In this document: positions 1,207 to 21,758 of the stretch, piece after piece | Layout of the letters: each line of letters starts with the position of its first letter | Numbering within the stretch: the stretch's first letter is position 1 | From: a virus | Strand: one strand, 5' to 3' | DNA: 29,522 bases | Virus record (IMG/VR): IMGVR_UViG_3300034403_000134 | Location: 1 to 29,522 of that record | Made by a program: the position numbers and the translations under genes | The notes under the pieces: generated by a model | Told to the model about the DNA's origin: nothing | The model's database searches: none | Seen by the model: the letters and a program-made list of their open reading frames with translations, nothing else

Positions 1207-1254
1207 TTAAAGAAGGATAATGACCTATCATCCACGGGTAAATTGCTCATGATA

Positions 1255-1262
1255 TATTATAG
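1255..1262 (-). promoter_or_regulatory. CTATAATA promoter box upstream of the fucosyltransferase-like gene
   Basis: On the minus strand this octamer overlaps the TAA stop of the preceding gene and ends 48 nt before the ATG at 1206. It matches the -10-like octamer found before gp32, dnaB and other genes in this window. No TTGACA-like -35 is evident. The role is inferred from recurrence. Confidence 0.45.
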
Positions 1263-6413: not shown

Positions 6414-7588
6414 ACTATTTTCTCCCGTGCTTCAAAGCAAACATCATACAACCCTATCCTACTACCCGCAACTTTGTTAAGATCAAATAATTCCTCGGTA
6501 ATAGAATGCAGGTTTTCACCCAATTCCATGCGGTGTTTTTTGTCCTTGGCTAACCTCGTCAAGACCTTCACCCACTCAGACTTGGGTGCATCTGGGTCAA
6601 GTAAATAGCCTGTTTCCCCGTTAATAATAGTATCGCTGTAACAACCCACATTGGAAGCTACGAGGGGGACTTTATACCTACCACACTCAGCAACTTTGAT
6701 ATCTGATTTACTATCATTAAAGTTATTCATCTGTAGTGGAGCTAGAGCAACATCCATCCTAGAAAAGAAGTACCCATAGTCTTCTGCTCCAACTGCGTTG
6801 TAAATTTGCCAATTCTGTGAACCTTTAAACCCTGATAGAAGAGTATTTTTGTAGTTCTTCCATACATCTAATTGCCATGCCTCTTTTTTATCGTCTGGTG
6901 CTACAGGTGGGCATCCATAAAAATCCCATTGGACTCTCTCTCGTCCAGCCTTGCAATTAACTAGGTGGGGGATACCAGCAAACTCTTTTACATCTTCTTC
7001 GTGATGAATCCCTCCTGCCCAACCAAACCTGCACACATTTTTACGGGGAGATGGCTGCTTAACACCATTCCAACTAGGCATGAGATAATCAATAGCATTT
7101 TTAACAACTGCAAGAGTTCCTGCTCCCATAAAAGGAACTACTCTGTCTGCAAACTTCTTCTGAGTTACAGTAACTAAATCAGAATTGTTATAAATAAACT
7201 TAGTTAGCTCCTCAAGACCCTTATCCTTATACACTTGTTTAAGTCGGTGTCCATCATAAAGATCAGTAAGAAGATCGTCTGTATCATAATGAACAAACTT
7301 ACCAAACTCCTTAGCCTTCCCTACGATCCTAGCTGTATACTGACCACCAAAGTTTGAGATGTTCTGAGTCATGACGATATCAGCCCAATGCATATCTTCA
7401 AACTTCCAGTTCTGCTTCCACCTTCCTGCGTTCTGGCCTGTTTCTTCTAACCCTAAAGGGTTCTTATTGAACCTAACCTCCACGCGATCTGGGTAGCGTT
7501 CCTGAAGCTTTTTAAATGGTCCCCAGGCTCTGTAATAAGCACACCCACCGTCATTGGCAGGACAAACGAGTATCTTGTATTTTCTCAT
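6392..7588 (-). CDS. GT4-like glycosyltransferase (first gene of the sugar operon)
   Basis: A 398-residue protein when started at the ATG at 7588. A longer frame from 7627 would translate through a terminator-like hairpin and adds nothing family-like. The N-terminus KILVCPANDGGCAYYRAWGP (after the Met) has the GG-x-AyyR pattern seen in phage GT4-like proteins. ADIVMTQNIS and VHYDTDDLL follow. The C-terminal domain has RFGWAGGIHHEEDV, DVALAPLQMNNFNDSKSDIK and a conserved AECG...PLVASNVG...INGETGYLLD region, typical of the GT4 donor site. No ribosome binding site is evident in front of the ATG, which follows directly on the T-run of the hairpin. It opens the sugar operon. Confidence 0.78.
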   Translation of the reverse strand: MRKYKILVCPANDGGCAYYRAWGPFKKLQERYPDRVEVRFNKNPLGLEETGQNAGRWKQNWKFEDMHWADIVMTQNISNFGGQYTARIVGKAKEFGKFVHYDTDDLLTDLYDGHRLKQVYKDKGLEELTKFIYNNSDLVTVTQKKFADRVVPFMGAGTLAVVKNAIDYLMPSWNGVKQPSPRKNVCRFGWAGGIHHEEDVKEFAGIPHLVNCKAGRERVQWDFYGCPPVAPDDKKEAWQLDVWKNYKNTLLSGFKGSQNWQIYNAVGAEDYGYFFSRMDVALAPLQMNNFNDSKSDIKVAECGRYKVPLVASNVGCYSDTIINGETGYLLDPDAPKSEWVKVLTRLAKDKKHRMELGENLHSITEELFDLNKVAGSRIGLYDVCFEAREKIVCQEQEK

Positions 7589-7591
7589 AAT

Positions 7592-7625
7592 AAAAAAGGG
7601 GGAGGGAACATTAAGCTCCCTCCCC
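7592..7625 (-). terminator. Rho-independent terminator between the lipoprotein gene and the sugar operon
   Basis: On the minus strand a 9-bp perfect GC-rich stem (GGGGAGGGA with TCCCTCCCC, 7625-7617 and 7607-7599) closes a 9-nt loop and is followed by C and six T residues. It lies 22 bases past the stop of the lipoprotein gene and touches the start of the GT4 gene. A CTATAATA box overlaps its upstream edge. Confidence 0.85.
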
Positions 7626-7626
7626 A

Positions 7627-7634
7627 TATTATAG
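7627..7634 (-). promoter_or_regulatory. CTATAATA promoter box for the sugar operon
   Basis: This intergenic octamer on the minus strand ends 38 nt before the GT4 ATG at 7588, the same distance as at gp32. Initiation about 7 nt downstream would fall inside the left arm of the hairpin at 7592-7625, so new transcripts would escape the terminator that stops transcripts arriving from upstream. Confidence 0.5.
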
Positions 7635-8202: not shown

Positions 8203-8895
8203 TTAATTTTGCAGTCGGTCGAGAAGATTACCATCAGAGTTTTCAGCAACTACATTCATAGCAGCAGTTTTAACTTCATCGTAATCCTCAAGTTTAACCA
8301 GTTCGTGAACCATATGTAGGGAATCCATGTATGCAGCAATTTCTGCTTGGGTTCCCGTAGGTTCGGATTTAGGACGAGGCTGTGACTGGTCATACTTAGG
8401 CCATTGTCCTTCCATTGTTTTGATGATTTTAAAATCAAAACCATCTTGAAGATCGGTGATATCACCAAAGTCTTCATCCAACATAGCAGCAACAATCTTT
8501 TTAAAGAGGATTACGCCAACGGAAAGAATCTTAACCTCACCACTATCACGATCAAGAATGTTCATGTAGTAACGAGCGCGAGGCTTAATTTGCCTCGCCA
8601 GATCCTTATCGGAATCTTTATCAGTCTTCCAAAGACCGAAGTAAGTATCACAAAGGGGACAAGCCTCTCCATGCATCTTTCGACAATGGAAGTTCTTAGC
8701 CATACCATCGGAACCAACAATACGATGCAATTTAGTTTCTGCATAGAATTCGGTTTCATCGTCCTTCGCTGGAAGGATGCGAACAAGGGTTGTCCCTTCT
8801 TTGATTTGGAGGTAGTGGGAAGATCCTCCCCCTCCTTGTGTAGATTTGCTGAGTTCAGCGTGTTTTGCCCGAAGGGCGTTAAGATCAATAGCCAT
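8203..8895 (-). CDS. 32: Single-stranded DNA-binding protein, gp32-like
   Basis: A 230-residue homologue of the T4 gp32 family, which coats single-stranded DNA during replication and recombination. A basic N-terminal helix (LNALRAKHAELSK) is followed by a Gly/Ser linker. The OB-like core begins with HYLQIKEGTTLVRILPAK (about 27-44). A putative zinc knuckle, HCRKMHGEACPLC (70-82: Cys71, His75, Cys79, Cys82), sits where T4 gp32 binds zinc but with much tighter spacing. The protein is shorter than T4 gp32 (301 residues), and the acidic C-terminal tail that T4 uses to contact partner proteins is reduced. AAGGAG precedes the ATG, and a CTATAATA box lies 39 nt upstream. The lipoprotein gene follows after 6 bases. 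Confidence 0.85.
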   Translation of the reverse strand: MAIDLNALRAKHAELSKSTQGGGGSSHYLQIKEGTTLVRILPAKDDETEFYAETKLHRIVGSDGMAKNFHCRKMHGEACPLCDTYFGLWKTDKDSDKDLARQIKPRARYYMNILDRDSGEVKILSVGVILFKKIVAAMLDEDFGDITDLQDGFDFKIIKTMEGQWPKYDQSQPRPKSEPTGTQAEIAAYMDSLHMVHELVKLEDYDEVKTAAMNVVAENSDGNLLDRLQN

Positions 8896-8934
8896 TAAAT
8901 TAGTCTCCTTAGTGTAAATTGGTTAGCGGTAAGT

Positions 8935-8942
8935 TATTATAG
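8935..8942 (-). promoter_or_regulatory. CTATAATA promoter box of the gp32 gene
   Basis: The octamer lies in the gap upstream of gp32 on the minus strand, overlapping the last stop codon of the preceding gene, 39 nt before the ATG at 8895. A clear AAGGAG ribosome binding site lies between. No -35 hexamer is visible 15-19 bp upstream, as in T4-type late promoters. It is the best-placed member of the set. Confidence 0.6.
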
Positions 8943-9374
8943 TTAGTTAAATAGTTTTTTCTCTTCTCTTTGATGAGAACTTAATTGAATAAGCATATCT
9001 TTCTTATGGGTCAGGGACATAACGAGCCCCTTCAAGAATTCATACTTTTGTTTAGCATCAAGGTACTTATCATTGTACTCATCATAATCAGAGTGAGAGA
9101 ATACAGCATCATCCAAGTCCTTAGCAGTCATCTTGGTTGATGATTCAGATTTCATTTGCTTACGAGTCATAGCAGCAAACTTTTCTAGTCCTCTGTTAGC
9201 TTTCTCCATATCTACTTTTGCCATGCAAGCCATAGTAGAGTAGGAAGCATAAATGGAGGATTGTCGAACCATAGAATCTTCAAGGTTGTGTGGGTCAACT
9301 CGGGTAGTTTCTTCAGCGATGTCGAAATATTCCTCGACACTCATTTCTTTAAACAAGGAAATAATGTTTTTCAT
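8943..9374 (-). CDS. Hypothetical protein, possible UvsY-like recombination mediator
   Basis: A 143-residue, highly charged, mostly helical protein. It lies directly upstream of gp32, where a mediator that loads recombinase onto gp32-coated DNA would make sense. The second half reads like phage UvsY-type proteins: a helix with KANRGLEKFAAMTRKQM, a spacer with KMTAKDLDDAVFSHSDY, then YLDAKQKYEFLKGLVMSLTHKKDMLIQLSSHQREE (about 103-137), i.e. a long helix ending in 'kkd.Li.l....R.E'. T4 UvsY is 137 residues, close to this length. Overall identity is clearly low, and the call rests on pattern and position. No recA/uvsX gene is in the window. Confidence 0.4.
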   Translation of the reverse strand: MKNIISLFKEMSVEEYFDIAEETTRVDPHNLEDSMVRQSSIYASYSTMACMAKVDMEKANRGLEKFAAMTRKQMKSESSTKMTAKDLDDAVFSHSDYDEYNDKYLDAKQKYEFLKGLVMSLTHKKDMLIQLSSHQREEKKLFN

Positions 9375-9382
9375 AATTGGTA

Positions 9383-9811
9383 CTAGTAGCCCATAGGGGG
9401 TAGGGTTCTTGTGGATGTGCCTGTCGGCGTAACTGTCTCTATTGTTATAGACGCTTCGGCGGCTTTTTGTCCTGGTAAATTGGAACTATTTTCTGTAAAT
9501 AACAAACCAAACTCTCGCTCGGATATTATTTGAAGTCCTCCCGTTGATCGCTCTACTAAGTACTCCCCTGGTTTACCTATTTTTTTAGGTTTATGCGGTG
9601 CGTCAGCAGGAGCAGATCGTGAATGAATTCCGAACTTTACAGGCATTTTCCTAAACAAAGTTCCTGATCTATCTTGTCTTGTTATCGTATATGTTCCTGG
9701 GTTTGCAAAATACCACCCAGGTAAATTATTTGAAGGATTTTTTAAATAAACCGAAAAGTGGGCGAAGCCCTCATCGTTGCCATTTTTATTCCAGTAAAAG
9801 AAGTCTGCCAT
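9383..9811 (-). CDS. Hypothetical protein
   Basis: A 142-residue protein with no motif I recognise. It is rich in Gly, Pro, Thr and aromatic residues, without membrane segments. The N-terminal half (FFYWNKNGNDEG, FSVYLKNP, GWYFANPGTYTITRQDRSG) and a Thr-rich end (ETVTPTGTSTRTLPPMGY) suggest a small beta-rich domain. It has a good ribosome binding site (TTAGGAG before the ATG) and sits between the metallopeptidase and the UvsY-like gene. Its composition looks more like a virion decoration or carbohydrate-binding protein than a replication enzyme, but this is only an impression. Confidence 0.5.
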   Translation of the reverse strand: MADFFYWNKNGNDEGFAHFSVYLKNPSNNLPGWYFANPGTYTITRQDRSGTLFRKMPVKFGIHSRSAPADAPHKPKKIGKPGEYLVERSTGGLQIISEREFGLLFTENSSNLPGQKAAEASITIETVTPTGTSTRTLPPMGY

Positions 9812-9853
9812 AATAAATTATCTCCTAACTTATTTAGTGTCTTTATCCTCAAT

Positions 9854-10183
9854 TTATTCAAAAATGAATTTGAAAAGTTCTTTATTTAACCCTGCTAATT
9901 GCTGAATCATATTAGCAGTAACTGTAGTAAGAAACTCGTTACCTATAGTGGGCATCTCATCATCATCACCTAGACCATAAAGATCAAAACCGATGTGGCA
10001 GATCTCATGCAATAGAGTTGCTTTGTAATCCTCTAGGCATTGATCAGGATCAATAGTAAGAAGGGATTTGGGGAACTCAACGCAACCATATAGATTGTCT
10101 TTAGCTAAAGACTTTTGAGATATAGTAAAGGTCTTTATCCCAGTATAAACCTTTAAAGGGTGAATTTGCTTTTCATATTTCAT
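9854..10183 (-). CDS. Small zinc metallopeptidase-like protein (HExxH)
   Basis: A 109-residue protein with a textbook zincin motif, LLHEICHIGFDLYGLGDDDE (about residues 58-77). In HEICH the two His residues would bind zinc and the Glu act as base; the downstream Asp/Glu cluster may supply the third ligand. An ILTID/CVEFPKS-like strand precedes it. The size and motif fit minimal SprT/ImmA-like zincins found in phages, where substrates include repressors or DNA-protein adducts. It has GGAGAGG before its ATG, which overlaps the dnaB stop region as TAAATG, so it is co-translated with the helicase. The active-site call is strong; the substrate is unknown. Confidence 0.7.
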   Translation of the reverse strand: MKYEKQIHPLKVYTGIKTFTISQKSLAKDNLYGCVEFPKSLLTIDPDQCLEDYKATLLHEICHIGFDLYGLGDDDEMPTIGNEFLTTVTANMIQQLAGLNKELFKFIFE

Positions 10184-11485
10184 TTAATCCTCTCCGTTAG
10201 CATAGTCTGCCTGACCCATCCTCAGATTTCCGTAATCAACATTCATGGGAACAATAAATCGGGGCCGTCCATTACGGGATTTAATAACAAATGCTCTCAT
10301 CTGTCCATTATCGAATTCTTCCGTAGTTTGATTCAGAGAGATAGCGAAATCACAAGTACGAATCTTTCCGTAGGAATCCCCCAACTCTGCATCTGTAATA
10401 ATCTTTACCATCCTGCCCTGCCTGTTAGTCTGTGTCGCAGTCCACAGTAGGCAATTATGCTCCATAGCAAGACCCCGCAATTCCTCGGATATTCGCTGCT
10501 GTGCGTGATATTCTTGCTGCACCTCAGTTGTGGGCCTCAGAAGCTCCAAGTAATCAACGACAATCAAATCTGGTACAAAATCGCTATGATTTTGAAGCTG
10601 TACCAACAAAGCCCTGAGAGTGTTCACATTAGCAGTAGCAGTAGGGAATTCTTTAATAACCAGTTTGGCATTAAACTTATCTTGGAAGACTTGTAGCCTG
10701 TCCTGTACTTGCAATTGGCTACTAACTTCCTTAAGCTTGCCCTGATTATATCCAGTTATGATGGAGTCGAATCTTTGTGCTACTTTATCTTCACGCATCT
10801 CCAAGGAAATATACAAAACATTTCTCCCCTCGGTAAGCCCCATGCAAGCCTGATTAACTAGCCACAAGGACTTACCCACCCCTGGAGGAGCAACAACCAT
10901 GGCTAACTCCTTCGGACCTAAACCACCTTCTAGCGACTTGTCAAGGTCTGGAAGTAGTGTACGGTATCTCTCCTGTTCTTCTCTATCGAATACACGCTTC
11001 CACCTATCTGAGAAATCATCGAAATACTCCTGACCTACATTAACATTTCGATTAACAAGTAGAGCCTCACGAACAACAGTCTCTACAGCAGCTACATCAC
11101 CCCGCTTAATAAGTTCTAGGCTTTTATGGATAGCCCTCTTCATAGCCTCCTTCTTAGCAAAATCCTCAACCTTATCTAGGATGAACTCCTTGTTTTGGAT
11201 ACTAGAAGTATCTAAGTTGTTGATATATGATAATTCATCAGAGTAATCCGACAACAACTCTCTCTCACCTTTGAAGGGTTTGACAGACTCTAGGATAATA
11301 TCATCATTAGGAAGATTACTATACTTCTCATAATGATCTTTAATTACCCTAAAGATATTAGAGTGAGATGGGTATTCAAAGTAATCCTCTTTAACAAGGT
11401 CTGAGGAATTAATAAAGAAATCTTTATCTGATTTAGCGAGGAACAAGATTCCTCGCTGAATGTTATCGCTAAAGTTGTAGGACAT
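10184..11485 (-). CDS. DnaB-like replicative helicase
   Basis: A 433-residue replicative DNA helicase of the DnaB/RecA-fold superfamily. The N-terminal helical domain (1-110) resembles the DnaB N-domain. The C-terminal ATPase domain has Walker A in APPGVGKS (199-206), a region after it with ISLEMREDKVAQRF (DnaB motif with the catalytic Glu), Walker B LIVVDYLELL (about 305-314), QQRISEELRGLAMEHNCLLWTATQTNRQG (motif with the sensor Gln) and KSRNGRPRFIVPMNVDYGNLRM at the end, the DnaB-type 'KnRnG' arginine region. T4 uses gp41 for this job. A CTATAATA box lies 43 nt upstream of the ATG. No separate primase is visible in the window. Confidence 0.9.
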   Translation of the reverse strand: MSYNFSDNIQRGILFLAKSDKDFFINSSDLVKEDYFEYPSHSNIFRVIKDHYEKYSNLPNDDIILESVKPFKGERELLSDYSDELSYINNLDTSSIQNKEFILDKVEDFAKKEAMKRAIHKSLELIKRGDVAAVETVVREALLVNRNVNVGQEYFDDFSDRWKRVFDREEQERYRTLLPDLDKSLEGGLGPKELAMVVAPPGVGKSLWLVNQACMGLTEGRNVLYISLEMREDKVAQRFDSIITGYNQGKLKEVSSQLQVQDRLQVFQDKFNAKLVIKEFPTATANVNTLRALLVQLQNHSDFVPDLIVVDYLELLRPTTEVQQEYHAQQRISEELRGLAMEHNCLLWTATQTNRQGRMVKIITDAELGDSYGKIRTCDFAISLNQTTEEFDNGQMRAFVIKSRNGRPRFIVPMNVDYGNLRMGQADYANGED

Positions 11486-11487
11486 TC

Positions 11488-11970
11488 TTAGTATTGTTTA
11501 GTCGGATGGTTCGGGTCTAGCTTTGCCTTATTATAGGTATGCTCGGTTAATTTTCTAGCACTATTAATCTTTCGGGATACCTCTTTGTCATTCAACTTTT
11601 TAGCCCTACCACTTTCCACTAACTTATCGGGTCTTAAATACACTGGTTTATACCGCATAGACTCGTCATCTAATCGCTCCTTACTTTCTCTAATAGATCT
11701 ATGTAAAAAAGTATTCGCAGAATCTTGATCAAAACCTTCTTTTTCAAATTTCCTGTATCTCTGCTTTACAGTATGGAAGTCTCCTGCGGTAGAATTCTTA
11801 TTCCCGCACCCATCATCCTTAAAGGAAATGCCAACATTAGAATTTTGCCAATACCTTTCGGACAATTTGTTACAATTGGGGCATCTAGTCCTATCAGGGG
11901 CTTTCCCAATAGAACAGTCCCTGTCCCAGTAAGCGTTGCATTCTTTACATATCCACTCGTAATTAGGCAC
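11488..11970 (-). CDS. FmdB-type zinc-ribbon protein
   Basis: A 160-residue protein beginning, in my reading, at a GTG at 11970. The resulting start MPNYEWICKECNAYWDRDC is the usual opening of FmdB-like zinc ribbons, and GGGGGTGA lies 5 nt upstream as a strong Shine-Dalgarno. It overlaps the end of the reductase gene by 8 bases. Two cysteine pairs, CKEC (residues 8-11) and CPNC (about 31-34), form the ribbon; DRDC lies between. The rest is basic and helical (KQRYRKFEKEGF, SIRESKERLDDESMRYKP). The function of the family is mostly unknown. The position between ribonucleotide reductase and helicase points to DNA metabolism or transcription. Confidence 0.7.
   Translation of the reverse strand: MPNYEWICKECNAYWDRDCSIGKAPDRTRCPNCNKLSERYWQNSNVGISFKDDGCGNKNSTAGDFHTVKQRYRKFEKEGFDQDSANTFLHRSIRESKERLDDESMRYKPVYLRPDKLVESGRAKKLNDKEVSRKINSARKLTEHTYNKAKLDPNHPTKQY
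11529..11536 (-). promoter_or_regulatory. CTATAATA box upstream of the helicase gene
   Basis: The octamer lies in the last codons of the Zn-ribbon gene on the minus strand, 43 nt before the helicase ATG at 11485. It has the long-leader spacing seen at gp32 and the sugar operon. It overlaps coding sequence, so the evidence is positional only. Confidence 0.35.
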
Positions 11971-13858
11971 CGCAATCACCCCCAGCAAGAGAACAAGCTT
12001 CCCCTGTTTGCACCCCTTCCTCAAGGTCTGCATCTTTCATATATTTTTCTATATTATCATTAGTTAATGCAATAGCAGAGAGAGGTTCTCCCTCCTTGGC
12101 TCCTGCCCTATACACAGTAAGCCCTTTCAGGTACGGCGCATACTCTAAAGCGACCTTACTGAAGTCCTCAGGCTCCGATGTGCTGGGTAAGTTGATTGTT
12201 TTAGAGATACACGAATCCATATACTTCTGAATAGTGGCTTGTACCTTAATGTGATCTTCAGGAGAAACATCAAAAGCCCCGACAAAGTTATTTAAACGCA
12301 ACCCTTGGGAATACCACTCTTTAAATAACGGATCAACCACTAATGTCTCTTTCCAAATATTGTTATGCCTATAACGCCTGTTATACATAGCAGAGAAAAT
12401 AGGCTCAATACCTGAACTAACCCCGTGGAGCATTGAAATAGTGCCGCAAGGAGGAATGGTAAGCATAACAGCATTGCGAATCCCGTATCGTTTGATAAGC
12501 ATTCTAATACGAGCGGGTAGAGTTTTTGCAAATTCTTCATTTAAATACTTTTTATAGTCGAACTCTGGGAAAGGCTTCTTATCCCTTGCAAGATATATAG
12601 ACATCTTATACGCTTCATCCCGAATGGTTCCGAATAATCTTTCCAGAAATTCTAAGCAGGACTCACTACCGTACCGTAAACCAAGCTTGATTAGCATATA
12701 ATGAAGGCCAGTAACACCCAGGCCAACTCTGCGGGATCTCTCACCCACTTTCTTACACTCTTCTGTTGGGAAAGTATTTACAGTTAAAACATTGTCTAGA
12801 AACCTAACTCCAGTTCGGACAGTCTTTGCCAAGCGTTTCCAATCCACGCCAGTACCATCATCAAGTACCATATTGCTAAGATTAACATTACCCAAGCAGC
12901 AGTTGCCATAAGAAGGAAGGGAAATCTCGCCACACGGATTCGTTGAATCCAGTTTTTCAAAGTATGAAACACTAGTGTACTTGTTTGCTAGGTCAATATT
13001 ATATATGCCAGGGTCACCAGACTCGACTGAATTTTTCCAAATGATATCCCATAAATCTTGGGCTTTAATATCATCAATACCAGCGCATTCGAAAGTATCC
13101 TTCCAATTTTCTTTATGGAAGTTGTTAGCACGGGTTAAAGCATCGGCTTCATCTAAAGCAACCACACTAACACTCTCGGAACCATTACGAATCATTTTGT
13201 AGGAATGGTAAGCCTTATTATTAAAAGTAAAATACCAATCCTCTCCAAGCTCGATAGCTTCAAGAAACCTTTCTGTAATAGCTACAGAGATGTTAAAGTT
13301 GTTAAGCTGACCTTGATCTAGCTTGACACTAAGGAACTCAAGCACATCAGGGTGATTAACATTAAGAATGCCCATAAGAGCCGTGCGCCTATTTTTTCCC
13401 GCTCGTACATGTTCGCCTACCTCATTAATCATTTGAAGAACCGACACCGATCCTGGTGCTGAATTCTTTACACTTCCAATATCGTCACCCTTTGGACGAA
13501 TCTTGGACACATTAAATCCGACTCCCCCTCCTGCACAGGATATTCTATACATATCCTGAATTGTTTTACCTATAGAATCAACGCTATCTTCTGGAATGAT
13601 AACATAACAGTTAAGAAGGTTATGATGCCCCCTATTACGACCAGCACCATAAATGATCCTGCCTCCTGGGATAAAGTCCCCCGATCCGACAACATCATAA
13701 AAATACTTTTCAATTTTTTCTTTATCTTCATCAGTTTCTGCCGAGGCAACGACTTTAGCAATGGCCTTTGCTCTTTCAGACCATTTTGTTTCACCTGGGT
13801 AGGCGTATCGAGATTCGAATATTTCTTGTCCAAGGGGGGATAGATTGGCTATTGTCAT
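11963..13858 (-). CDS. nrdJ: Adenosylcobalamin-dependent (class II) ribonucleotide reductase
   Basis: A 631-residue monomeric reductase that converts ribonucleotides to deoxyribonucleotides for phage DNA synthesis. Landmarks: first redox Cys in NLLNCYVIIPE (Cys84), CAGGGVGFNVSKIRPKG (108-124), the radical-site segment NPCGEISLPSYGNCCLGN (307-324), giving Asn307, Cys309, Glu311 and second redox Cys320, and PPCGTISMLHGVSSGIEP further on. The C-terminal CX6C (CSLAGGDC) would be the swinging thiol pair. There is no N-terminal ATP cone and no separate small subunit nearby, which, with the spacing of the glycine-rich segment, favours class II over class I. Its start overlaps the gp46 stop (ATGA). 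The host or environment must supply B12. Confidence 0.9.
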   Translation of the reverse strand: MTIANLSPLGQEIFESRYAYPGETKWSERAKAIAKVVASAETDEDKEKIEKYFYDVVGSGDFIPGGRIIYGAGRNRGHHNLLNCYVIIPEDSVDSIGKTIQDMYRISCAGGGVGFNVSKIRPKGDDIGSVKNSAPGSVSVLQMINEVGEHVRAGKNRRTALMGILNVNHPDVLEFLSVKLDQGQLNNFNISVAITERFLEAIELGEDWYFTFNNKAYHSYKMIRNGSESVSVVALDEADALTRANNFHKENWKDTFECAGIDDIKAQDLWDIIWKNSVESGDPGIYNIDLANKYTSVSYFEKLDSTNPCGEISLPSYGNCCLGNVNLSNMVLDDGTGVDWKRLAKTVRTGVRFLDNVLTVNTFPTEECKKVGERSRRVGLGVTGLHYMLIKLGLRYGSESCLEFLERLFGTIRDEAYKMSIYLARDKKPFPEFDYKKYLNEEFAKTLPARIRMLIKRYGIRNAVMLTIPPCGTISMLHGVSSGIEPIFSAMYNRRYRHNNIWKETLVVDPLFKEWYSQGLRLNNFVGAFDVSPEDHIKVQATIQKYMDSCISKTINLPSTSEPEDFSKVALEYAPYLKGLTVYRAGAKEGEPLSAIALTNDNIEKYMKDADLEEGVQTGEACSLAGGDCGA

Positions 13859-15447
13859 GCTTTTAGTTTTGTGATTCCTTTGTGTTTAATGACTGTAAGA
13901 CGCTTTGCGGAATCCAATAAGGTCTTTAAGTGTTTGTTGTGAGTGATAACGAAAATCGTTTTATCTTTTTTAATCTCTTGCAATAGTTCATGGAGTCCAC
14001 GAACACCCTCCTCATCCAAGTTTTCAGCAACTTCATCAAAGAAAACTAAATCAGACTGGTCTTTATCTGTCAACAACAAAAGATCTTTCAATGCCAGCAT
14101 GATTGCCAGATTGATCTTCCTTTTTTCACCACCAGATAAAGATATATACTGAATAATAGTCCCGTTTGTTGTAATTTTCTCAACTAATTCGGAATCAAAT
14201 TCTACAAAATAGTTACTATTCGTAAGGTAAGAGAGGTAAAAGTTACAACGATCATTGAAATACTCTAAAACATTTCTAATAATGTACTTAATGACCCCCT
14301 GCTCGGATAAAGCCTTCTCCCAAAACCTCATAACATCATAATCTATTTTGCTAGAAGATTTATCTTTCTGATATTGCAAGATCTTCTCTGTATACTCTTG
14401 TATTAAAGAAGTAAAAGTTTCCTCATCTCGACATAAATCCTTATACTTCAAAATCTTAGAAAATTCTCTTGAGGAAATAGGAGGTTCCCAAAGAGTACTT
14501 TGTAAATCCTTTAGTTTAATCTTCATCTCCATAGTATCTATTGCGATATTTCCTATATCCAGGGCGTTCTGCTCTGGGTCATGTTTTACAACAATATCTT
14601 GCTTGCACCTGGGGCAGACTTCTACGGAGTTAGGGTGTTGAGCTTTATACTCTAGATCTTCCAACCTTTCTGTGTTAGCATCTATCTCCTTTTTATATGC
14701 TGAGATTTTAAAGTTAGTGTCCCTATACTTATTCTCACCATTTAGAATATCATCTAGAGACAAACTCAAAGTGTCCTTATTATACTTATTTGTATACCAC
14801 AAGGTATCGTCTTCAATTGCTTTTAGTTTCTTTTTAAGATCTGTAATAGATCTCTCTTGCTCACTCACTAAAGAGTCTTGTAATTTCATGGACTGGTACG
14901 CTTCTGCCTTGTGTCCTTTTATACGATCCCTCATAGAAAATACATCATCTAAGTTAAGGAATGTTTTTATGATATTTCTCTTATCATCAGCAGTAGAATC
15001 TAAAAAACTAATGTCGTTAGATTGACCGAAGAACATTGAAGACACTAACACTTTATAATTTGTGTTAAGGGTTTCATCAATAGCGGCTTGGGTTTGCGCT
15101 ACGGTAGCTTTAGTTAGATTGTTATCCCCTAATAGGAACTCAAGGCTGGACGGTTTCTTTTTCCTGGTAATAACAATGTATTCGTTATCCTTAAGTATGT
15201 GAAGTTGCACGGTACACAACTTCTTTGCTTTGTTGTTTACTAAGGAATCCTCCGTACTTTTTCTAATAGTTTTCCCTGTAAGACCGAATAAAATAGCCTC
15301 TAGTAAAACACTCTTACCAGAACCGTTAGAGCCCTTAGCGTCTTTATTAATCCCTTTGATTAGTGTAAGTCCTGAGTATTCGGACAGACACAACTCTGCA
15401 TCCCTGATAGAGTAAAAGTTTTTGATTACAATTTTTTCAATCTTCAT
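13855..15447 (-). CDS. 46: SbcC/Rad50-like recombination ATPase (gp46)
   Basis: A 530-residue SMC-type ATPase, the gp46 half of the T4 gp46/gp47 nuclease that resects DNA ends for recombination-dependent replication. Walker A is GSNGSGKS (39-46), followed by VLLEAILFGLTG. Two coiled-coil arms flank a zinc hook CPRC (278-281). The ABC signature SLSGGEKRKINLAIMLAL is at 436-453, Walker B DLVFFDEVAENLD at 466-478, and the switch His in FVITHNKHL (about 499-507). The length is close to T4 gp46 (560). It begins inside the end of the gp47 gene (11-base overlap), fitting translation in step with its partner. Confidence 0.93.
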   Translation of the reverse strand: MKIEKIVIKNFYSIRDAELCLSEYSGLTLIKGINKDAKGSNGSGKSVLLEAILFGLTGKTIRKSTEDSLVNNKAKKLCTVQLHILKDNEYIVITRKKKPSSLEFLLGDNNLTKATVAQTQAAIDETLNTNYKVLVSSMFFGQSNDISFLDSTADDKRNIIKTFLNLDDVFSMRDRIKGHKAEAYQSMKLQDSLVSEQERSITDLKKKLKAIEDDTLWYTNKYNKDTLSLSLDDILNGENKYRDTNFKISAYKKEIDANTERLEDLEYKAQHPNSVEVCPRCKQDIVVKHDPEQNALDIGNIAIDTMEMKIKLKDLQSTLWEPPISSREFSKILKYKDLCRDEETFTSLIQEYTEKILQYQKDKSSSKIDYDVMRFWEKALSEQGVIKYIIRNVLEYFNDRCNFYLSYLTNSNYFVEFDSELVEKITTNGTIIQYISLSGGEKRKINLAIMLALKDLLLLTDKDQSDLVFFDEVAENLDEEGVRGLHELLQEIKKDKTIFVITHNKHLKTLLDSAKRLTVIKHKGITKLKA

Positions 15448-16426
15448 TTTTTAATAAGCTATATCCTAGCATGATTTGTTCTTTCGTTAAACTAGTTTGT
15501 ACCGAATTAACATAATCCTCTAAGATAACTTCATTTATAGAAAATAAATCTCTAGAGGGAGAGTAATCGCTACTGTCTTCAAGAAGTGCATCACTAGTGG
15601 GATTCCATTTAATATCAATAGAAGCTACATCAATGCCTTCCAAGGATAGTTCGGTGTCATCTCTATGCCTTAGAATACGCAATAGAGTGAAGTAATTTTT
15701 ATCATTTAAAAACTCAATAAGGTCTGGGTCAGTCTGTATGCTCTCGTACTTTAAAAGAACATGGCGAGGGCCGTGAAGGACTTTATGGTAAGATACTTTA
15801 TCATCATCAATTATTGCATAGTAATTGTCTTTACCACATTCTCCAAAGTTAGTTGTGTATGGTGTTCCTAGAACCGTAACATTATCTTTCTGAACATATC
15901 GGTGAATATGCCCCAACAAACTAGGAGTCCTAAAATCAGACAACCGCAAAGAGAAATCAGCATCACCAGCGGAATTAAGGCACCCACGATAACCGAAGTG
16001 ACCAAATACCATAAACCCTTCAGGGACTTCATCCAAAGCTTTCTTAATAGTTTCTTGGTTTTCATAATGCGGAATGTACACCCTCCTTGTAGCAGGGTCT
16101 TTTGTCGTGTGTTTTATAATAGTAACATCAGTAAAACTACTCTCAAAAACAGACAATGCAGTAATACCATCATCAGCTTTAGTTTCGCTATCATGATTTC
16201 CCCGTAGGACTGTGACCGAAGAACGAGAGCTTACATAGTCTAGTATTTGTTTAAAACCTAATAACTCAGAGGGAGAAGGTCGCCTATTCATAAAAACATC
16301 ACCCATTATAATGATGTTCTCGGGTTCAGCGTCAGCACAAATTTTGATTATGCACTTCACCTGTTCATCTAAGAAGCCGTATAGCTTATTGCTTAGGTGT
16401 AAATCTGTTATTACTAATGTTTTCAT
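15437..16426 (-). CDS. 47: SbcD/Mre11-like recombination nuclease (gp47)
   Basis: A 329-residue calcineurin-type metallophosphoesterase, the nuclease partner of gp46. All five metal motifs are present: DLH (8-10), GDVF (42-45), GNHD (76-79), GHFG (about 141-144) and GHIH (about 172-175). The size matches T4 gp47 (339 residues). The C-terminal part (VILEDYVNSVQTSLTKEQIMLGYSLL) would be the capping and gp46-binding region. Its ATG overlaps the stop of the polymerase C-terminal fragment (ATGA), so the nuclease pair continues the polymerase operon without a break. Confidence 0.93.
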   Translation of the reverse strand: MKTLVITDLHLSNKLYGFLDEQVKCIIKICADAEPENIIIMGDVFMNRRPSPSELLGFKQILDYVSSRSSVTVLRGNHDSETKADDGITALSVFESSFTDVTIIKHTTKDPATRRVYIPHYENQETIKKALDEVPEGFMVFGHFGYRGCLNSAGDADFSLRLSDFRTPSLLGHIHRYVQKDNVTVLGTPYTTNFGECGKDNYYAIIDDDKVSYHKVLHGPRHVLLKYESIQTDPDLIEFLNDKNYFTLLRILRHRDDTELSLEGIDVASIDIKWNPTSDALLEDSSDYSPSRDLFSINEVILEDYVNSVQTSLTKEQIMLGYSLLKNED

Positions 16427-17484
16427 ACAAAAACCTCTTCACCATCTCCGAAGGACTTGCCGACAAGAATTTCAATCGCCAAAGGAACATCTAAATGAAG
16501 GTTAAATTGTTCTTTGATATATGGATAGTTAACTAACTCATCATGAATAAGCTTACATAGCTCTTTAACCTCTTCGTCTGGTGCGATTAGTTCAATACTA
16601 TCATGGACAGTAGCAACAATACGCGATTTCATACCTAGGTCTTTCATTCTCTTATGCAAACCAACAAGAGAACCTAAAAGTATATCGGATGCAGCACTTT
16701 GAATAGTAAAGTTAAGACCCTGGCGTAAAGATCGGCTTCGTACTTGCTTATCATTACTGTACACATCTGGGAGATTACGCCTCCTGCCAAATATAGTGTA
16801 AGCATAACCGTTAGTTCTAATAAAATCATTTATGAATTCCATAAAAGAGAATACAGCAGGATAAACCCTTTTGTAACTAGCGATGATATTCTCCGCTCTC
16901 TTAAGTGGGATTGCCATAGTCTCTGCTAAATTGAATGCGCCTCCACCATAAACAATAAGGAAGGATACCGTCTTTGCAATTTGCCGCTCTTGTTTTGAGA
17001 TATTTTCTTTATTAAAAAGGAGACGAGCAGTATAGGTGTGTAGATCAACACCCTTCTGAAAGGCATTCTGCATATTACCGTCCTTCGCAACATGAGCTAG
17101 AACGCGCAATTCCATAGCAGAGTAGTCTACGGTAATAAAAGAATGCCCCTTTGGTGCAATAAAGAAACTCCTAATATTATGTTTTGTTTCGCGTGGAAGC
17201 GTGTGGAACGAAACGCCCATACTCTTACTGGCAGTATATGCAGCGCAGGACAATCTACCCGTTGCGGTCCCATCGAACCTGTAATCAACATATACTTTGT
17301 TCTCTTCATTATATTCCATGGCCTGCTTAGTGCCTTGGATATATGTTTTCTGCAACTTCTCAGATTTTCGTAAATCTAATAACCCTTTAAGAAAAGCACT
17401 AGAAGATACTAAATCTTCAGTAGTCTTCGCAGCAATTACAGATTTACTAATCTTCTTCCCTTCGTCCCGATAGCCCCACTTCAT
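16423..17484 (-). CDS. DNA polymerase family A, fragment 3: thumb, palm and fingers
   Basis: A 353-residue protein carrying only the polymerase catalytic part of a family A enzyme. The thumb segment FLKGLLDLRKSEKLQKTYI is at 31-49, TATGRLSC at 73-80, motif A TVDYSAMELRVLAH at 118-131 (catalytic Asp120), motif B RQIAKTVSFLIVYGGG at 167-182 (Arg167, Lys171, Phe175, Tyr179) and motif C TVHDS at 292-296 (Asp295). The residue equivalent to E. coli Phe762 is Phe. It lacks the 5' part of the thumb and all proofreading parts, which lie in two upstream genes. The ATG overlaps the stop of the oxygenase gene (ATGA). All catalytic residues are intact, so it should be active, probably as a complex with the other two pieces. 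Confidence 0.93.
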   Translation of the reverse strand: MKWGYRDEGKKISKSVIAAKTTEDLVSSSAFLKGLLDLRKSEKLQKTYIQGTKQAMEYNEENKVYVDYRFDGTATGRLSCAAYTASKSMGVSFHTLPRETKHNIRSFFIAPKGHSFITVDYSAMELRVLAHVAKDGNMQNAFQKGVDLHTYTARLLFNKENISKQERQIAKTVSFLIVYGGGAFNLAETMAIPLKRAENIIASYKRVYPAVFSFMEFINDFIRTNGYAYTIFGRRRNLPDVYSNDKQVRSRSLRQGLNFTIQSAASDILLGSLVGLHKRMKDLGMKSRIVATVHDSIELIAPDEEVKELCKLIHDELVNYPYIKEQFNLHLDVPLAIEILVGKSFGDGEEVFV

Positions 17485-18083
17485 TGTTGTATATTAAAGG
17501 AAAAAAGTTGGTTTATTCTCTCATGGTCTGTGGTCGTATTTATAGAATGGAACAACCTACCACTATACAGTAGAAGCCTATTGTATTTATAATCAATTTT
17601 GTCAAGCTCTCGCCAATTAGATTTGGGGCGCACACATAACGGATCACTTGTAGGTCCGTTAATATAGCAAGAAGAAGTAAACGATTTTTGTGTACTTTTC
17701 TCTTCCCAAAACGATGTTCCGAACTCAGGAGGACACTCAGGACTTAGCATTACTACTCCTACATAGTCAGTAGAATCATGATGAACATGATTAGGAGTTA
17801 GTTTTATTTTTGGGGATATTTTATAAAAAGTCCCATTAAAAGAAGTACCATCAAGCACAATAGACTCCTCTATTTTCCTTTTACGGGTCCAACAATCGTC
17901 AACAGCAATTTTTAATTTAAGAATATCCTCAAAGAGTGGTATAAACTCGTTAGTAATAAAACTTGAGCTTCTAGTGAAATGTCGGCTATCTACTATAGAA
18001 TACTTAGTAGATAATGCCATCTCACGAACCTTATCAGGGTTCTCATAAAAATCATCTACAACTACTATATCACGATAATTCAT
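17481..18083 (-). CDS. 2OG-Fe(II) oxygenase-like protein inserted between polymerase fragments 2 and 3
   Basis: A 200-residue protein when started at the ATG at 18083, preceded by GAGG at good spacing; a TTG at 18107 is less likely. The first part VVVDDFYENPDKVREMAL (about 7-24) is the usual opening of DUF6445-like 2-oxoglutarate oxygenases. The double-stranded beta-helix follows, with HVHHDSTDYVGVVMLSP (99-115; iron ligands His101 and Asp103), the distal His in LYSGRLFHSI (His179) and the 2OG-binding Arg in ERINQLFSF (Arg189). All core residues are present. The substrate is unknown; family members oxidise proteins or small molecules. It overlaps the polymerase fragment 2 stop by 14 bases and fragment 3 by 4 bases, an exact fit in the gap. 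Confidence 0.75.
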   Translation of the reverse strand: MNYRDIVVVDDFYENPDKVREMALSTKYSIVDSRHFTRSSSFITNEFIPLFEDILKLKIAVDDCWTRKRKIEESIVLDGTSFNGTFYKISPKIKLTPNHVHHDSTDYVGVVMLSPECPPEFGTSFWEEKSTQKSFTSSCYINGPTSDPLCVRPKSNWRELDKIDYKYNRLLLYSGRLFHSINTTTDHERINQLFSFNIQQ

Positions 18084-18558
18084 TTCTGCCTCGTAGTTCT
18101 TCTTCAATATGCTCTAGTAAGATTTTTAATGTAGGTGCCGACACCGAGGGTGCGCCTTTTGAAGTACGATCAGGGGGGTAGAGTCCGAAACCCTCCTCAT
18201 TAGTATAGAGGATTTCAGATAAATTCATGGTAGAAGATAGATTATCTTTAGGCATCACCTCCTTATAGGCATACAGATAATCCTCAGTTTCTATGTTTGC
18301 CGTCTTTAGAATCTTACCTACAGATTCTAGAGTGGTTGGGCAAACCTCTAACCCCGCAAATTCAATCTCTGAGAAAATAGTATTAGCTGGAGCTAGAACT
18401 TTCTCAAAAAATGGAACTAAGCCAAGATCTGAGAACTTATCGAAAATAAGATTGAAAAGCTTTAAGGTAAAATAAGTGTCAGCAGCGTTGCCTTCGCAAC
18501 AATCAGACAACTCCATATTAGCCCAATCGAATTTTTTAGGATTTGTAACAGTTAACAT
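18070..18558 (-). CDS. DNA polymerase family A, fragment 2: exonuclease motif III and start of thumb
   Basis: A 162-residue middle piece of the polymerase. The segment CCEGNAADTYFTLKLF (20-35) corresponds to exonuclease motif III (Y-x3-D), with Asp27 as the metal ligand; the motif's Tyr is replaced by Gly23. VLAPANTIFSEIEFAGLEV (about 54-72) matches the 'ELPL...l..mE..Gv.vd' link between exonuclease and thumb. The end, TSKGAPSVSAPTLKILLEH (about 134-152), matches the thumb 'T..GapSt....L..L' motif. It stops just where fragment 3 picks up. Its ATG overlaps a TAA that would end the full-length oxygenase frame upstream (TAATG), with GAGAGG as ribosome binding site. Alone it can have no catalytic activity. 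Confidence 0.85.
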   Translation of the reverse strand: MLTVTNPKKFDWANMELSDCCEGNAADTYFTLKLFNLIFDKFSDLGLVPFFEKVLAPANTIFSEIEFAGLEVCPTTLESVGKILKTANIETEDYLYAYKEVMPKDNLSSTMNLSEILYTNEEGFGLYPPDRTSKGAPSVSAPTLKILLEHIEEELRGRNELS

Positions 18559-18635
18559 TATTTAAACCTCTCATCTCCTAACCACCATTGAACTAAACTA
18601 GTTCTCACCGCACGGGCAAGTCTCCTTTTTTCACT
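18558..18635 (-). other. Untranslated or recoded C-terminal end of the oxygenase gene
   Basis: These 78 bases continue the oxygenase frame after its in-frame TGA: 25 sense codons and a TAA that overlaps the next ATG as TAATG. The part AVRTSLVQWWLGD carries the Arg and hydrophobic strand expected at the end of a P4Hc domain. A second frame over the same stretch (from about 18645) reads VAEVKKGDLPVR, also like this family. It is either a small insertion or frameshift scar, a recoding site, or a sequencing error. Confidence 0.6.
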
Positions 18636-19193
18636 TCAGCTACCTCCAGGCTTGGGTTTAACCTCGGTAACGATGTGTGGCGTATACGATGGGAAAATAA
18701 CAGCCTGACCTTGCTTTCTTTTAATGGTATTATAACGACTGCCCAAAGTTAATAACATTAAGTCGCCTCCATCATAGGATAACCCGTCTGATAATTCAAC
18801 GGAGATACTTAGTTTTCTTCTAATGGATGGTCCACTATCCCCCATATCATGATGCCAAGAATAGTGTTCCCCACAACCATACTGCGTAAACTGTACAGCT
18901 TCGGAATGATTTACATCAAAATGATACTTATTAGTATTAACAGTCAGGATCGCATCTTTTATCCTATCTTGAACCCACCATAAATTCTCATCATCCCTAG
19001 GAAGCCAACCAACCTTAGACTTTCGGACATCTCCAGTTGCGGCTCTACCACCCGATAAGTTCCCAGGCCCCATTTTTAGCTTTTTCTCGCAATACTTCTG
19101 TATTTTAACACATTCCTCAGGGGTGAACAAATCAAGTACGACATAATCGCAGATGTTCTGATCATCCAAGTCTTTTTCTTCTTGTTCTTCCAT
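18636..19193 (-). CDS. Prolyl-4-hydroxylase-type 2OG-Fe(II) oxygenase, ending early, inserted between polymerase fragments 1 and 2
   Basis: A 185-residue protein with a P4Hc/PiuC-like fold: YVVLDLFTPEECVKI (17-31) as entry strand, then FTQYGCGEHYSWHHDMGD (102-119; iron ligands His114 and Asp116), RRKLSISVELSD and the YDGGDLML turn (140-147), and the distal His in FPSYTPHIVTEV (His173). A TGA at 18638-18636 stops the frame before the last core strand, which holds the 2OG-binding Arg. The same frame then continues open for 25 codons to a TAA at 18560-18558 and includes AVRTSLVQWWLGDERF, the expected final strand. The full gene would be about 211 residues. The 5' end follows polymerase fragment 1 as TAATG. 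Whether the short form works is doubtful. Confidence 0.75.
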   Translation of the reverse strand: MEEQEEKDLDDQNICDYVVLDLFTPEECVKIQKYCEKKLKMGPGNLSGGRAATGDVRKSKVGWLPRDDENLWWVQDRIKDAILTVNTNKYHFDVNHSEAVQFTQYGCGEHYSWHHDMGDSGPSIRRKLSISVELSDGLSYDGGDLMLLTLGSRYNTIKRKQGQAVIFPSYTPHIVTEVKPKPGGS

Positions 19194-20203
19194 TACAACG
19201 ACTCCAACTCAGTAGGGAAGTACAGCTTCACTAAATCCATAAGACCCTTCGGTAAATTTTCATTGATGATGTGGTGCATGATTTTTGTATCCCAAACATT
19301 GGTAGGTATGATATTATAGCGATAGAGGAACTTCAAATCAAATTTTGCATTGTGAAAAACTTTCTTATTTTTAGAATTTACTAGAATCCCTCTAATGTAC
19401 ATCCAAAACTTATCCTGATGGTCTAATCCCTTAAAGGGTGAGTCCTTATGATCACAAGGAACAACCCAATTCCCATCCTGGGTTGAGAAGGCTATAGTTT
19501 GTATTAAATCTGTCTTAAAATTTAAACCTGTAGTCTCAATGTCACAGGCAACGGTATCATCCGTATGTTTTAACCTTTCAAATAATGCCTCAACTTTATC
19601 AAGGCTCATTAATGTTTGGTAGGAGAAGTTCCCTTCACTCTTTTTGCCAAGTACATATTTTTCAATTGCATTATTGATATCTGTCTGGAACAGGATTGAG
19701 TGACGAGGCTCCTTAATAACGGAATAAGGATGGAAAATAGGGACAACGACACAAGTGTGCCCATTAATACTGGTGAAATCAAATGCTTTTCCTCTTTTAC
19801 TAGTAATACCACTCTTCCTAATCAACATCTTCATGGCTAGATTGCCACAAGTGAATACTACTTTAGGTTTTACCTTATCAATAGTAGCTTCTAGATGCTG
19901 CCTACAGATCTTCATGTCTGCGGGAAACATATCAGCTTCTTTAACGGTAGGACATTTAACAGAAGCGGCACAAACAAACGGTAACGATGCTGCCCTCTTA
20001 ATCGTATTATACTCAGGTGAGGAAAATGGCTTAGTCTCTCCGTACTTATATTTTAAGGAATCGGAAAGAAAAAGGATATCGGAAGTCCCCAACTTTTCAT
20101 AATCTAGTACTGTATGGCATGGTTTGCTCTTCTTTAATACAGAGCATCCTTTACATAACTCGTTGATATCACTGGAGTTATACAGTTTATCTAATTCAAA
20201 CAT
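19193..20203 (-). CDS. DNA polymerase family A, fragment 1: UDG-like domain plus exonuclease motifs I and II
   Basis: A 336-residue protein with two parts. Residues 1-180 resemble family 4 uracil-DNA glycosylases: CKGC (17-20), then Cys84 and Cys100, spaced like the four Fe-S ligands (C-x2-C ... C-x15-C), and PIFHPYSV (155-162) at the position of the conserved 'HP' motif. The usual GEAPG catalytic motif is not kept (FLSDSLKYKYGETKPF). Residues 215-336 begin a DnaQ-like 3'-5' exonuclease: motif I VACDIETTGL (218-227; Asp221, Glu223) and motif II FHNAKFDLKFL (283-293; Asp289), then VWDTKIMHHIINENLPKGLMDLVKLYF. It stops before motif III, which is in fragment 2. The ATG is 14 bp from the divergent gp55-like ATG and has no room for a ribosome binding site. 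Confidence 0.88.
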   Translation of the reverse strand: MFELDKLYNSSDINELCKGCSVLKKSKPCHTVLDYEKLGTSDILFLSDSLKYKYGETKPFSSPEYNTIKRAASLPFVCAASVKCPTVKEADMFPADMKICRQHLEATIDKVKPKVVFTCGNLAMKMLIRKSGITSKRGKAFDFTSINGHTCVVVPIFHPYSVIKEPRHSILFQTDINNAIEKYVLGKKSEGNFSYQTLMSLDKVEALFERLKHTDDTVACDIETTGLNFKTDLIQTIAFSTQDGNWVVPCDHKDSPFKGLDHQDKFWMYIRGILVNSKNKKVFHNAKFDLKFLYRYNIIPTNVWDTKIMHHIINENLPKGLMDLVKLYFPTELESL

Positions 20204-20204
20204 A

Positions 20205-20212
20205 CTATAATA
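20205..20212 (+). promoter_or_regulatory. CTATAATA box 5 nt before the gp55-like start
   Basis: The only plus-strand copy of the octamer seen. It fills most of the 14-bp gap between two divergent start codons and ends 5 nt before the ATG at 20218, so a transcript from it would be leaderless. On the opposite strand the same bases read TATATT, 5 nt before the polymerase ATG. The AT-rich core is nearly symmetrical and could serve both directions. Confidence 0.5.
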
Positions 20213-20217
20213 TAATC

Positions 20218-20562
20218 ATGGCTGGTCATTACATAAACAACAAAGAATTTGAAAAGCTCATAAGTGCATACCTTGTAGATCCTAAAAAATACGAGGATGA
20301 ACTCATGCCTTTGTTCGACAAATTAATTGAGAATATAATGCTATCCTTTAAGTTTAATGTGGATCTTGAAGACGCTAAACAAGAATGCTTCCTACTGATC
20401 TTAAAAACGCTGAAAAACTTCAACCCTAAGCATGGTAGTGCATTCAATTACTTCACAACAATCGTAGTAAATAATCTAAAATTAATATACTCTAAAAACA
20501 AGAAATATAACGAGAAGATTAAAAACTACTCAGAAGCGAAAAAAGACTCATTTAACCTTTAA
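20218..20562 (+). CDS. 55: Late-transcription sigma factor, gp55-like
   Basis: A 114-residue plus-strand protein that resembles T4 gp55, the sigma-like factor that directs host RNA polymerase to late promoters. The opening YINNKEFEKLI (5-15) parallels T4 gp55 YVNNKELLQAI. The segment DLEDAKQECFLLILKTLKNFNPKHGSAFNYFTTIVVNNLKLIYSK (about 51-95) matches sigma region 2 (helix 'e.ive...ai.k.l..fD...g..f..yl....') that recognises the -10 box. It is far shorter than T4 gp55 (185 residues) and lacks an evident C-terminal clamp-binding tail. The 3' end overlaps the convergent thioredoxin-like gene by 15 bases. If the box at 20205 is its promoter, it has no 5' leader. Confidence 0.72.
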   Translation: MAGHYINNKEFEKLISAYLVDPKKYEDELMPLFDKLIENIMLSFKFNVDLEDAKQECFLLILKTLKNFNPKHGSAFNYFTTIVVNNLKLIYSKNKKYNEKIKNYSEAKKDSFNL

Positions 20563-21227: not shown

Positions 21228-21758
21228 ATGGAAGACAATTTTGATTTAACAGAAATAACTAAAAAAACTCGCAAGAAAGTTAACAGTAGGCAAAAAGGTT
21301 CCTCGTTCGAACGGGGCATCAGTAAACTTCTTAATGATACATTTAATACAGATGAATTCTGTAGATCCCCTGGTTCTGGGGCATTTGCTACTACACATAA
21401 ATTACCAGAATATCTAAAGATATATGGAGACTTAATAACTCCAGAGAACTTTAGGTTTACTATAGAATGTAAGAAGGGATATAACAATATTAATATCTAT
21501 TCTTTATTAGATTATAGTAGCAAATTCTGGGAATTCCTTGCCCAATCCGAAAAAGATTCTAAATCTTCAAAAAAAGAGTCTATGGTTATCTTTAAGCAAG
21601 ACAGAAAACCAACTTTAGCTATTGTAAAAGATAGCACTAGGTTTAGTACATGTATTACTCACCTTACTCTTACTAAGGATACTAAAATCTATAGAATCTA
21701 TAAGCTAGAAGACATACTGGTTGAACCTATTGCTTGTTGGTTTACTGAACTTGCATAA
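21228..21758 (+). CDS. PD-(D/E)XK nuclease, putative Holliday-junction resolvase
   Basis: A 176-residue plus-strand protein with a PD-(D/E)XK core. The first helix is RQKGSSFERGISKLLND (21-37, Glu28 a candidate ligand). CRSPGSGAF follows (45-53), then GDLI (67-70, Asp68) and FTIECKKGY (77-85, Glu80 and Lys82). The K/R-G-S-x-x-E-R start and RxxxSG loop recall archaeal Hjc-type and phage resolvases, which cut four-way junctions before packaging. T4 uses the unrelated gp49. GGAG precedes the ATG. The 3' end overlaps the convergent large gene by 17 bases. The nuclease fold is well supported; junction specificity is inference. Confidence 0.7.
   Translation: MEDNFDLTEITKKTRKKVNSRQKGSSFERGISKLLNDTFNTDEFCRSPGSGAFATTHKLPEYLKIYGDLITPENFRFTIECKKGYNNINIYSLLDYSSKFWEFLAQSEKDSKSSKKESMVIFKQDRKPTLAIVKDSTRFSTCITHLTLTKDTKIYRIYKLEDILVEPIACWFTELA

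Follow-up and report, generated by a model that had tools for sequence, protein, structure and literature searches.

The 29,522-nucleotide stretch of viral DNA analyzed here (IMG/VR virus record IMGVR_UViG_3300034403_000134, positions 1 to 29,522; the window) encodes a family A DNA polymerase in three separate genes, F1, F2, and F3, and each of the two gaps between them is occupied by a gene for a 2-oxoglutarate- and Fe(II)-dependent [2OG-Fe(II)] oxygenase, OX1 and OX2. Both breaks recur throughout a clade that is a large, widespread group of uncultured, mostly marine myoviruses. It is very probable that the replicative polymerase of this clade is made from three separately translated genes whose products assemble in trans and that the oxygenases are cargo. 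This picture of a clade with a three-gene polymerase, a proofreading site built from two chains, and a cassette site inside an essential enzyme is broader than that given in a first-pass annotation of the window, which had centered on the oxygenases. If the polymerase does work in three pieces, it would show how far such an enzyme can be divided while replicating a genome of about 130 kb, and anyone engineering split polymerases would find natural places to cut in its breaks. In ocean virology, one consequence is that a widespread uncultured group is represented only by fragments in annotations and in surveys that use PolA as a marker.

Three polymerase genes and the position of the breaks

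The five frames lie on the minus strand in the order F1, OX1, F2, OX2, F3. F1 (19193..20203) encodes an N-terminal domain resembling uracil-DNA glycosylase (UDG) followed by the first part of a 3'-5' exonuclease with motifs I and II, comprising the equivalents of E. coli D355, E357, and D424; it matches PF03167 (UDG) and PF01612 (DNA_pol_A_exo1; E 1e-18), the latter only as far as profile position 131 of 173. F2 (18070..18558, minus strand) carries exonuclease motif III (the D501 equivalent) and the first part of the thumb. It matched no Pfam family, and a profile built from 31 F2 members matched Klenow (E 1.6e-7). F3 (16423..17484, minus strand; PF00476, E 1.7e-78) has a conserved N-terminal extension and supplies the rest of the thumb, the palm, and the fingers with all polymerase motifs, among them palm and fingers motifs A, B, and C with the catalytic Asp that mark a family A (Pol I-type) polymerase. 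The three products cover the 1,445 positions of phrog_17 in order (F1 544-785, F2 794-927, F3 931-1235). The Pfam matches, the order along phrog_17, and the F2-Klenow match together bear out the first-pass annotation in its reading of the three frames as one family A polymerase with these domains in this order.

Among 25 clade members, the F3 equivalents of R668, D705, R754, K758, F762, Y766, R841, Q849, H881, and D882 are invariant, as are all four metal ligands of the DEDD exonuclease, D355, E357, and D424 in F1 and D501 in F2. The AlphaFold2 model of F1 (predicted local distance difference test score [pLDDT], 76) shows a family 4 UDG fold joined to a partial DEDD exonuclease, and the chain end next to the break is disordered. 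The model matches family 4 UDGs and Klenow/DEDD exonucleases, and family 4 UDGs are the top Foldseek matches of the N terminus. Four cysteines that are invariant in clade F1 (C17, C20, C84, and C100, in the region of amino acids 17 to 100; alignment A5) are the Fe-S cysteines of family 4 UDGs. The GEAPG catalytic motif of these enzymes has been lost, the corresponding stretch in the clade, read by eye, being FLSDS, and on these grounds glycosylase activity of the domain is doubtful.

In alignments to intact polymerases (E. coli Pol I and those of phages), break 1 lies at about E. coli residue 473, between exonuclease motif II (D424) and motif III (D501), and break 2 at about residue 614, within the thumb. 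Because break 1 falls inside the exonuclease domain, the metal ligands of the proofreading site appear to be supplied by two polypeptides, F1 and F2. The region around break 2 spans 53 to 59 residues in the clade versus 14 to 16 in four intact polymerases, one from E. coli and three from phages (S-TIM5 has 82 residues there, in a part where its alignment is poor). This clade-specific extension includes columns that are invariant in 32 sequences, making it a candidate docking element.

The split across the clade

Wider scans returned about 250 loci, which were reduced to 98 distinct IMG/VR loci when repeats were removed. The same two break sites were present throughout, and fused fragments were found at neither junction in any of the 98, so nowhere do exonuclease, thumb, palm, and fingers share one polypeptide. 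The first-pass annotation had suggested such a search for split and intact relatives and had pointed to a continuous frame in an independent assembly, or an intact polymerase elsewhere in the genome, as findings that would overturn it. None of these was found: the independent contig L002 has break 2, about 98 loci have both breaks, and 11 records of up to 131 kb held no intact copy. L002 and the recurrence of both breaks also rule out an assembly artifact. The three-gene state is thus a fixed trait, which the known clade appears to have inherited from its ancestor, and what sets the window apart is its oxygenases, not its split.

Median ratios of nonsynonymous to synonymous substitution rates (dN/dS) are 0.061 for F1, 0.042 for F2, and 0.041 for F3, indicating strong purifying selection on all three pieces. 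Eleven records of 67 to 131 kb each contain a single match to PF00476, a single match to PF01612, and a single F2 (in two pieces in the record of locus L055), and the PF01612 match stops at profile position 128 to 135 of 173 in these records. No other polymerase (PF00136 family B or PF07733 PolIII) was found in them; an intact second copy, or an origin of the pieces from paralogues, is ruled out in these 11. The records may be incomplete, and the evidence for a sole polymerase is strong rather than closed.

Some observations concern the clade and its surroundings. One member of 130,604 bp (L175/L057) lies in a contig of a single-cell genome whose title reads Prochlorococcus sp. AG-409-P03, a possible hint at the host, but no psbA was found in the 11 larger records. 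A distant locus, L019, carries a family A polymerase in two frames (4739-6698) with an HNH-like open reading frame (ORF) downstream; its break is a different one, and it was rejected as a clade member. In Vibrio phage D69 (L258, 821-4700), the annotated polymerase is in pieces separated by small hypothetical ORFs, which may point to unrecognized introns.

Cargo at the junctions

Junction 1, between F1 and F2, could be resolved in 84 loci: 43 show an exact TAATG in which the F1 stop codon overlaps the F2 start codon, one has a short overlap, and 40 hold inserts of 151 to 2,403 bp. Junction 2, between F2 and F3, was resolved in 88 loci and is direct in 86, the exceptions being the window, with OX2, and L055, with a frameshift inside F2. 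When strand was assigned by the largest open frames, 31 of the 40 inserts at junction 1 proved to be antisense to the polymerase genes and 9, including that of the window, to be co-oriented. The products of representative inserts mostly belong to no known family, one being a glycosyltransferase, and neither an endonuclease nor a further oxygenase was recognized in the representative insert ORFs tested. The polymerase tree requires a minimum of 17 changes in the insert state (direct, antisense, or co-oriented), and cassettes at junction 1 have thus been repeatedly gained, swapped, and lost. Junction 1 is a natural record of how other genes, some of them antisense, can come to use an essential gene as a docking site.

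In 30 of the 31 antisense loci, the F2 start codon comes immediately after a TATA-like box with the consensus TAATATATAG-NN-ATG, from which some copies vary (L009 at 2995, L061 at 8586, L050 at 9465, and 27 others). The box is missing from all 44 direct and all 9 co-oriented loci, and its strict form occurs 19 times in 1.17 Mb (both strands), every time at F2. We prefer the reading that F2 behind antisense genes has its own, perhaps leaderless, start; alternatively, the box could be a promoter from which the antisense gene is transcribed.

In the window itself, junction 1 (19191..19195, minus strand) is a TAATG in which the F1 stop codon overlaps the start codon of OX1 (18636..19193, minus strand). 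OX1 encodes a P4H-type 2OG-Fe(II) oxygenase (PF13640, 2OG-FeII_Oxy_3, E 1e-11; phrog_61, E 1e-23) that is shortened because a TGA falls in its frame at 18636-18638, about 25 codons ahead of the TAATG at F2. Beyond the TGA, the frame stays open to a TAA at 18558-18560 and contains the expected C-terminal RTSLVQWW. The HHD motif and the distal His precede the TGA and the 2OG-binding Arg of RTSLV lies past it, so the HxD...H motif and the 2OG-binding Arg/Lys do not fall within one open frame. The TGA is possibly a mutation marking a pseudogene, a sequencing error, or a site of read-through. OX2 (17481..18107, minus strand; ATG start at 18083, TTG at 18107) encodes a DUF6445-like 2OG-Fe(II) oxygenase (PF20043, E 9.1e-8; phrog_1644, E 2e-24) with HHD, FHS, and HERIN all in one frame of 208 amino acids; it overlaps F2 by 14 bases and meets F3 in an ATGA. 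The oxygenase assigned to each gap by the first-pass annotation is therefore present, P4H-type in the first and DUF6445-like in the second, and so are the TAATG between F1 and OX1, the 14-base overlap, and the ATGA that it listed. Its second TAATG fails as the OX1 stop, which it would be only under read-through of the TGA.

Relatives of these two genes are scarce at the polymerase locus. In L002, F3 is 77% identical to that of the window and is preceded, across the same ATGA, by a gene whose product is 52% identical to OX2. Oxygenases were recognized at junction 2 in the window and L002 only and at junction 1 in the window only. Searches of IMG/VR found no OX1 relatives, and an OX2 profile found L002 as the sole relative.

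Proposed assembly in trans, its rivals, and known systems

We propose that the three genes are translated separately and that their products would form an obligate three-subunit polymerase in trans. Since the exonuclease site and the thumb are incomplete without F2, F2 would have to bridge F1 and F3. The split itself is old; junction 1 would later have turned into a cassette site, junction 2 has received genes very rarely, and the two oxygenases of the window would be late passengers rather than the cause of the breaks. The parts are separately encoded, unspliced, and all conserved, in keeping with a trans-assembling split phage enzyme. We infer physical assembly, and with it polymerase and proofreading activity, from this conservation and by analogy: the split gp43A and gp43B of Aeromonas phage 25 co-purify and polymerize, and the NrdA of phage Aeh1, split by mobE, remains active as a multichain enzyme (PMC2988022). 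To that extent the interpretation in the first-pass annotation is partly supported, in that separate polypeptides would have to assemble.

Several points weigh against this proposal. The predicted structure of F2 alone has a pLDDT of 61 and no confident fold; this low-confidence result, which we do not take as proof, would be compatible with a need for partners and equally with a shallow alignment. The Tyr of the DEDDy subtype, present in E. coli (Y497) and the four phage polymerases compared, is replaced by Gly in 25 of 25 clade members, suggesting that proofreading may be weak or altered throughout the clade. No intact polymerase turned up among close relatives, and the direction of change, from fused to split, leans on comparison with distant intact homologues. 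Finally, it is possible that a host polymerase is used instead.

As to how the first split arose, a tentative suggestion, compatible with assembly in trans, is that free-standing homing endonucleases made the breaks and were later lost. This is an established route to split phage genes, exemplified by mobE in Aeh1 nrdA (PMC2988022), and cassette gain and loss continues at junction 1. Against it, no endonuclease was recognized in the insert ORFs tested, and the two genes in the gaps of the window encode oxygenases, in line with the first-pass annotation, which had seen no homing endonuclease there. It is unlikely that the split has been kept for its usefulness, with an F1-F2 proofreading module joining and leaving F3 so that the phage tunes proofreading during infection and with F1 forming its own transcription unit where antisense cargo intervenes.

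In the model of the first-pass annotation, the oxygenase genes had entered a polymerase gene that was intact until then and were kept by selection, as part of a co-translated five-protein complex in which the oxygenases act on the polymerase or on newly made DNA. Such a complex is very improbable. The tight coupling of the genes (TAATG, 14-base overlap, and ATGA) and the OX2 relative before F3 in L002 speak for it, but nearly all relatives have the same splits without oxygenases, and a role of the oxygenases in making the breaks is not supported. Junction 1 holds many unrelated, often antisense genes, including a glycosyltransferase gene, with no oxygenase recognized among the other inserts tested, and the truncation of OX1 removes its 2OG-binding Arg. 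Marine phages often carry PF13640-type oxygenases (268 records); only 1 of the 11 large relatives has a PF13640 gene, located elsewhere in its genome, and none was detected to have a PF20043 gene in a search that lacked a positive control.

Decay of the polymerase, with another enzyme replicating the genome, is just as improbable: the clade has lost the exonuclease Tyr and OX1 is broken in the window, but dN/dS is 0.04 to 0.06 for all three genes, the catalytic residues are invariant, and the records of up to 131 kb hold no other polymerase. Least probable of all is a single chain made across an intron, an intein, or a frameshift, although such interruptions are common in phage polymerases (the gene of Bacillus phage Adastra is spliced), since no Rfam intron was found in the window or ten relatives and no intein domain among the Pfam matches of the fragments, directly adjoining genes are still in different frames, F2 and F3 each have a conserved start, with a Shine-Dalgarno-like or TATA-like sequence before F2, and the antisense genes between F1 and F2 contradict it in 31 loci, where they exclude frameshifting and ribosome hopping; the first-pass annotation had likewise set introns and inteins aside.

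Assembly in trans would give the clade a place beside known split enzymes, from each of which it differs. As in Aeromonas phages 25 and 44RR, a replicative polymerase is encoded in separate genes with unrelated sequence between them, theirs being a seg endonuclease gene or IC-UTS (PMC2988022). Their gp43A/gp43B polymerase, however, is of family B and in two pieces, whereas that of the clade is of family A and in three, is fixed in this state across about 98 loci, and has cargo that is not an endonuclease. The OM43 phages MEP401 and MEP402 are closer in kind, being marine phages with a family A polymerase in two ORFs, a split common to most of their group, and a small unknown ORF in the gap (PMC10580990). 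There, the exonuclease domain is whole and the break lies inside DNA_pol_A, whereas here the exonuclease domain is broken; an intron was thought possible by the authors of that study (PMC10580990), and the clade described here has antisense cargo. Aeh1 NrdA is likewise an essential enzyme that works in pieces (PMC2988022), but it is a different enzyme, and its homing endonuclease is still present.

SPO1-like polymerases (Bacillus phages SBSphiC, Goe26, and Adastra) are among the best annotated homologues, at about 27 to 32% identity. They too are of family A, and the F1 match extends into their UDG-like part, but each is encoded by one gene; in Adastra, an intron that comes with a homing endonuclease interrupts this gene. 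Rhodothermus phage RM378, a myovirus of about 130 kb whose helicase, ribonucleotide reductase (RNR), and tail sheath are distantly related to those of the window, had been named in the first-pass annotation as a parallel with exonuclease and polymerase on separate genes. It does have a separate exonuclease gene, but one of the kind seen in family B (PF03104), and a search of RM378 found no family A palm; it was rejected as a nearer relative of the split polymerase. An S-TIM5-like cyanophage was also rejected, its polymerase being intact and only weakly similar. Among annotated phages, no fragment of the three exceeded 60% identity, the best matches being at about 25 to 34%. Two-piece phage polymerases have already been published; we found no three-gene, clade-wide phage polymerase in searches of open-licence papers.

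Neighboring genes

Divergent from F1 lies a weakly sigma-factor-like gene (20218..20562, plus strand; Sigma70_r2, E 1e-4, below the cut-off; phrog_1740, E 0.0016). The two start codons are about 14 bp apart (20203-20218) with TATATTATAG between them, and boxes like TATTATAG precede F1 in relatives. Downstream of the polymerase genes and in the same orientation are replication and recombination genes (8203..16426, minus strand), assigned from Pfam and PHROG matches as sbcD (15437-16426), sbcC (13855-15447), the RNR large subunit (11963-13858), a DnaB-like helicase (10184-11485), and a gp32-like single-stranded DNA-binding protein (8203-8895). Between the replication and tail genes, 21742-24441 encodes an 899-amino-acid protein with no Pfam or PHROG match. 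At 376-7627, about eight genes run in one direction and mostly encode glycosyltransferases (GT2, GT10, GT11, group 1, and NodZ-like), a density that is unusual for a phage.

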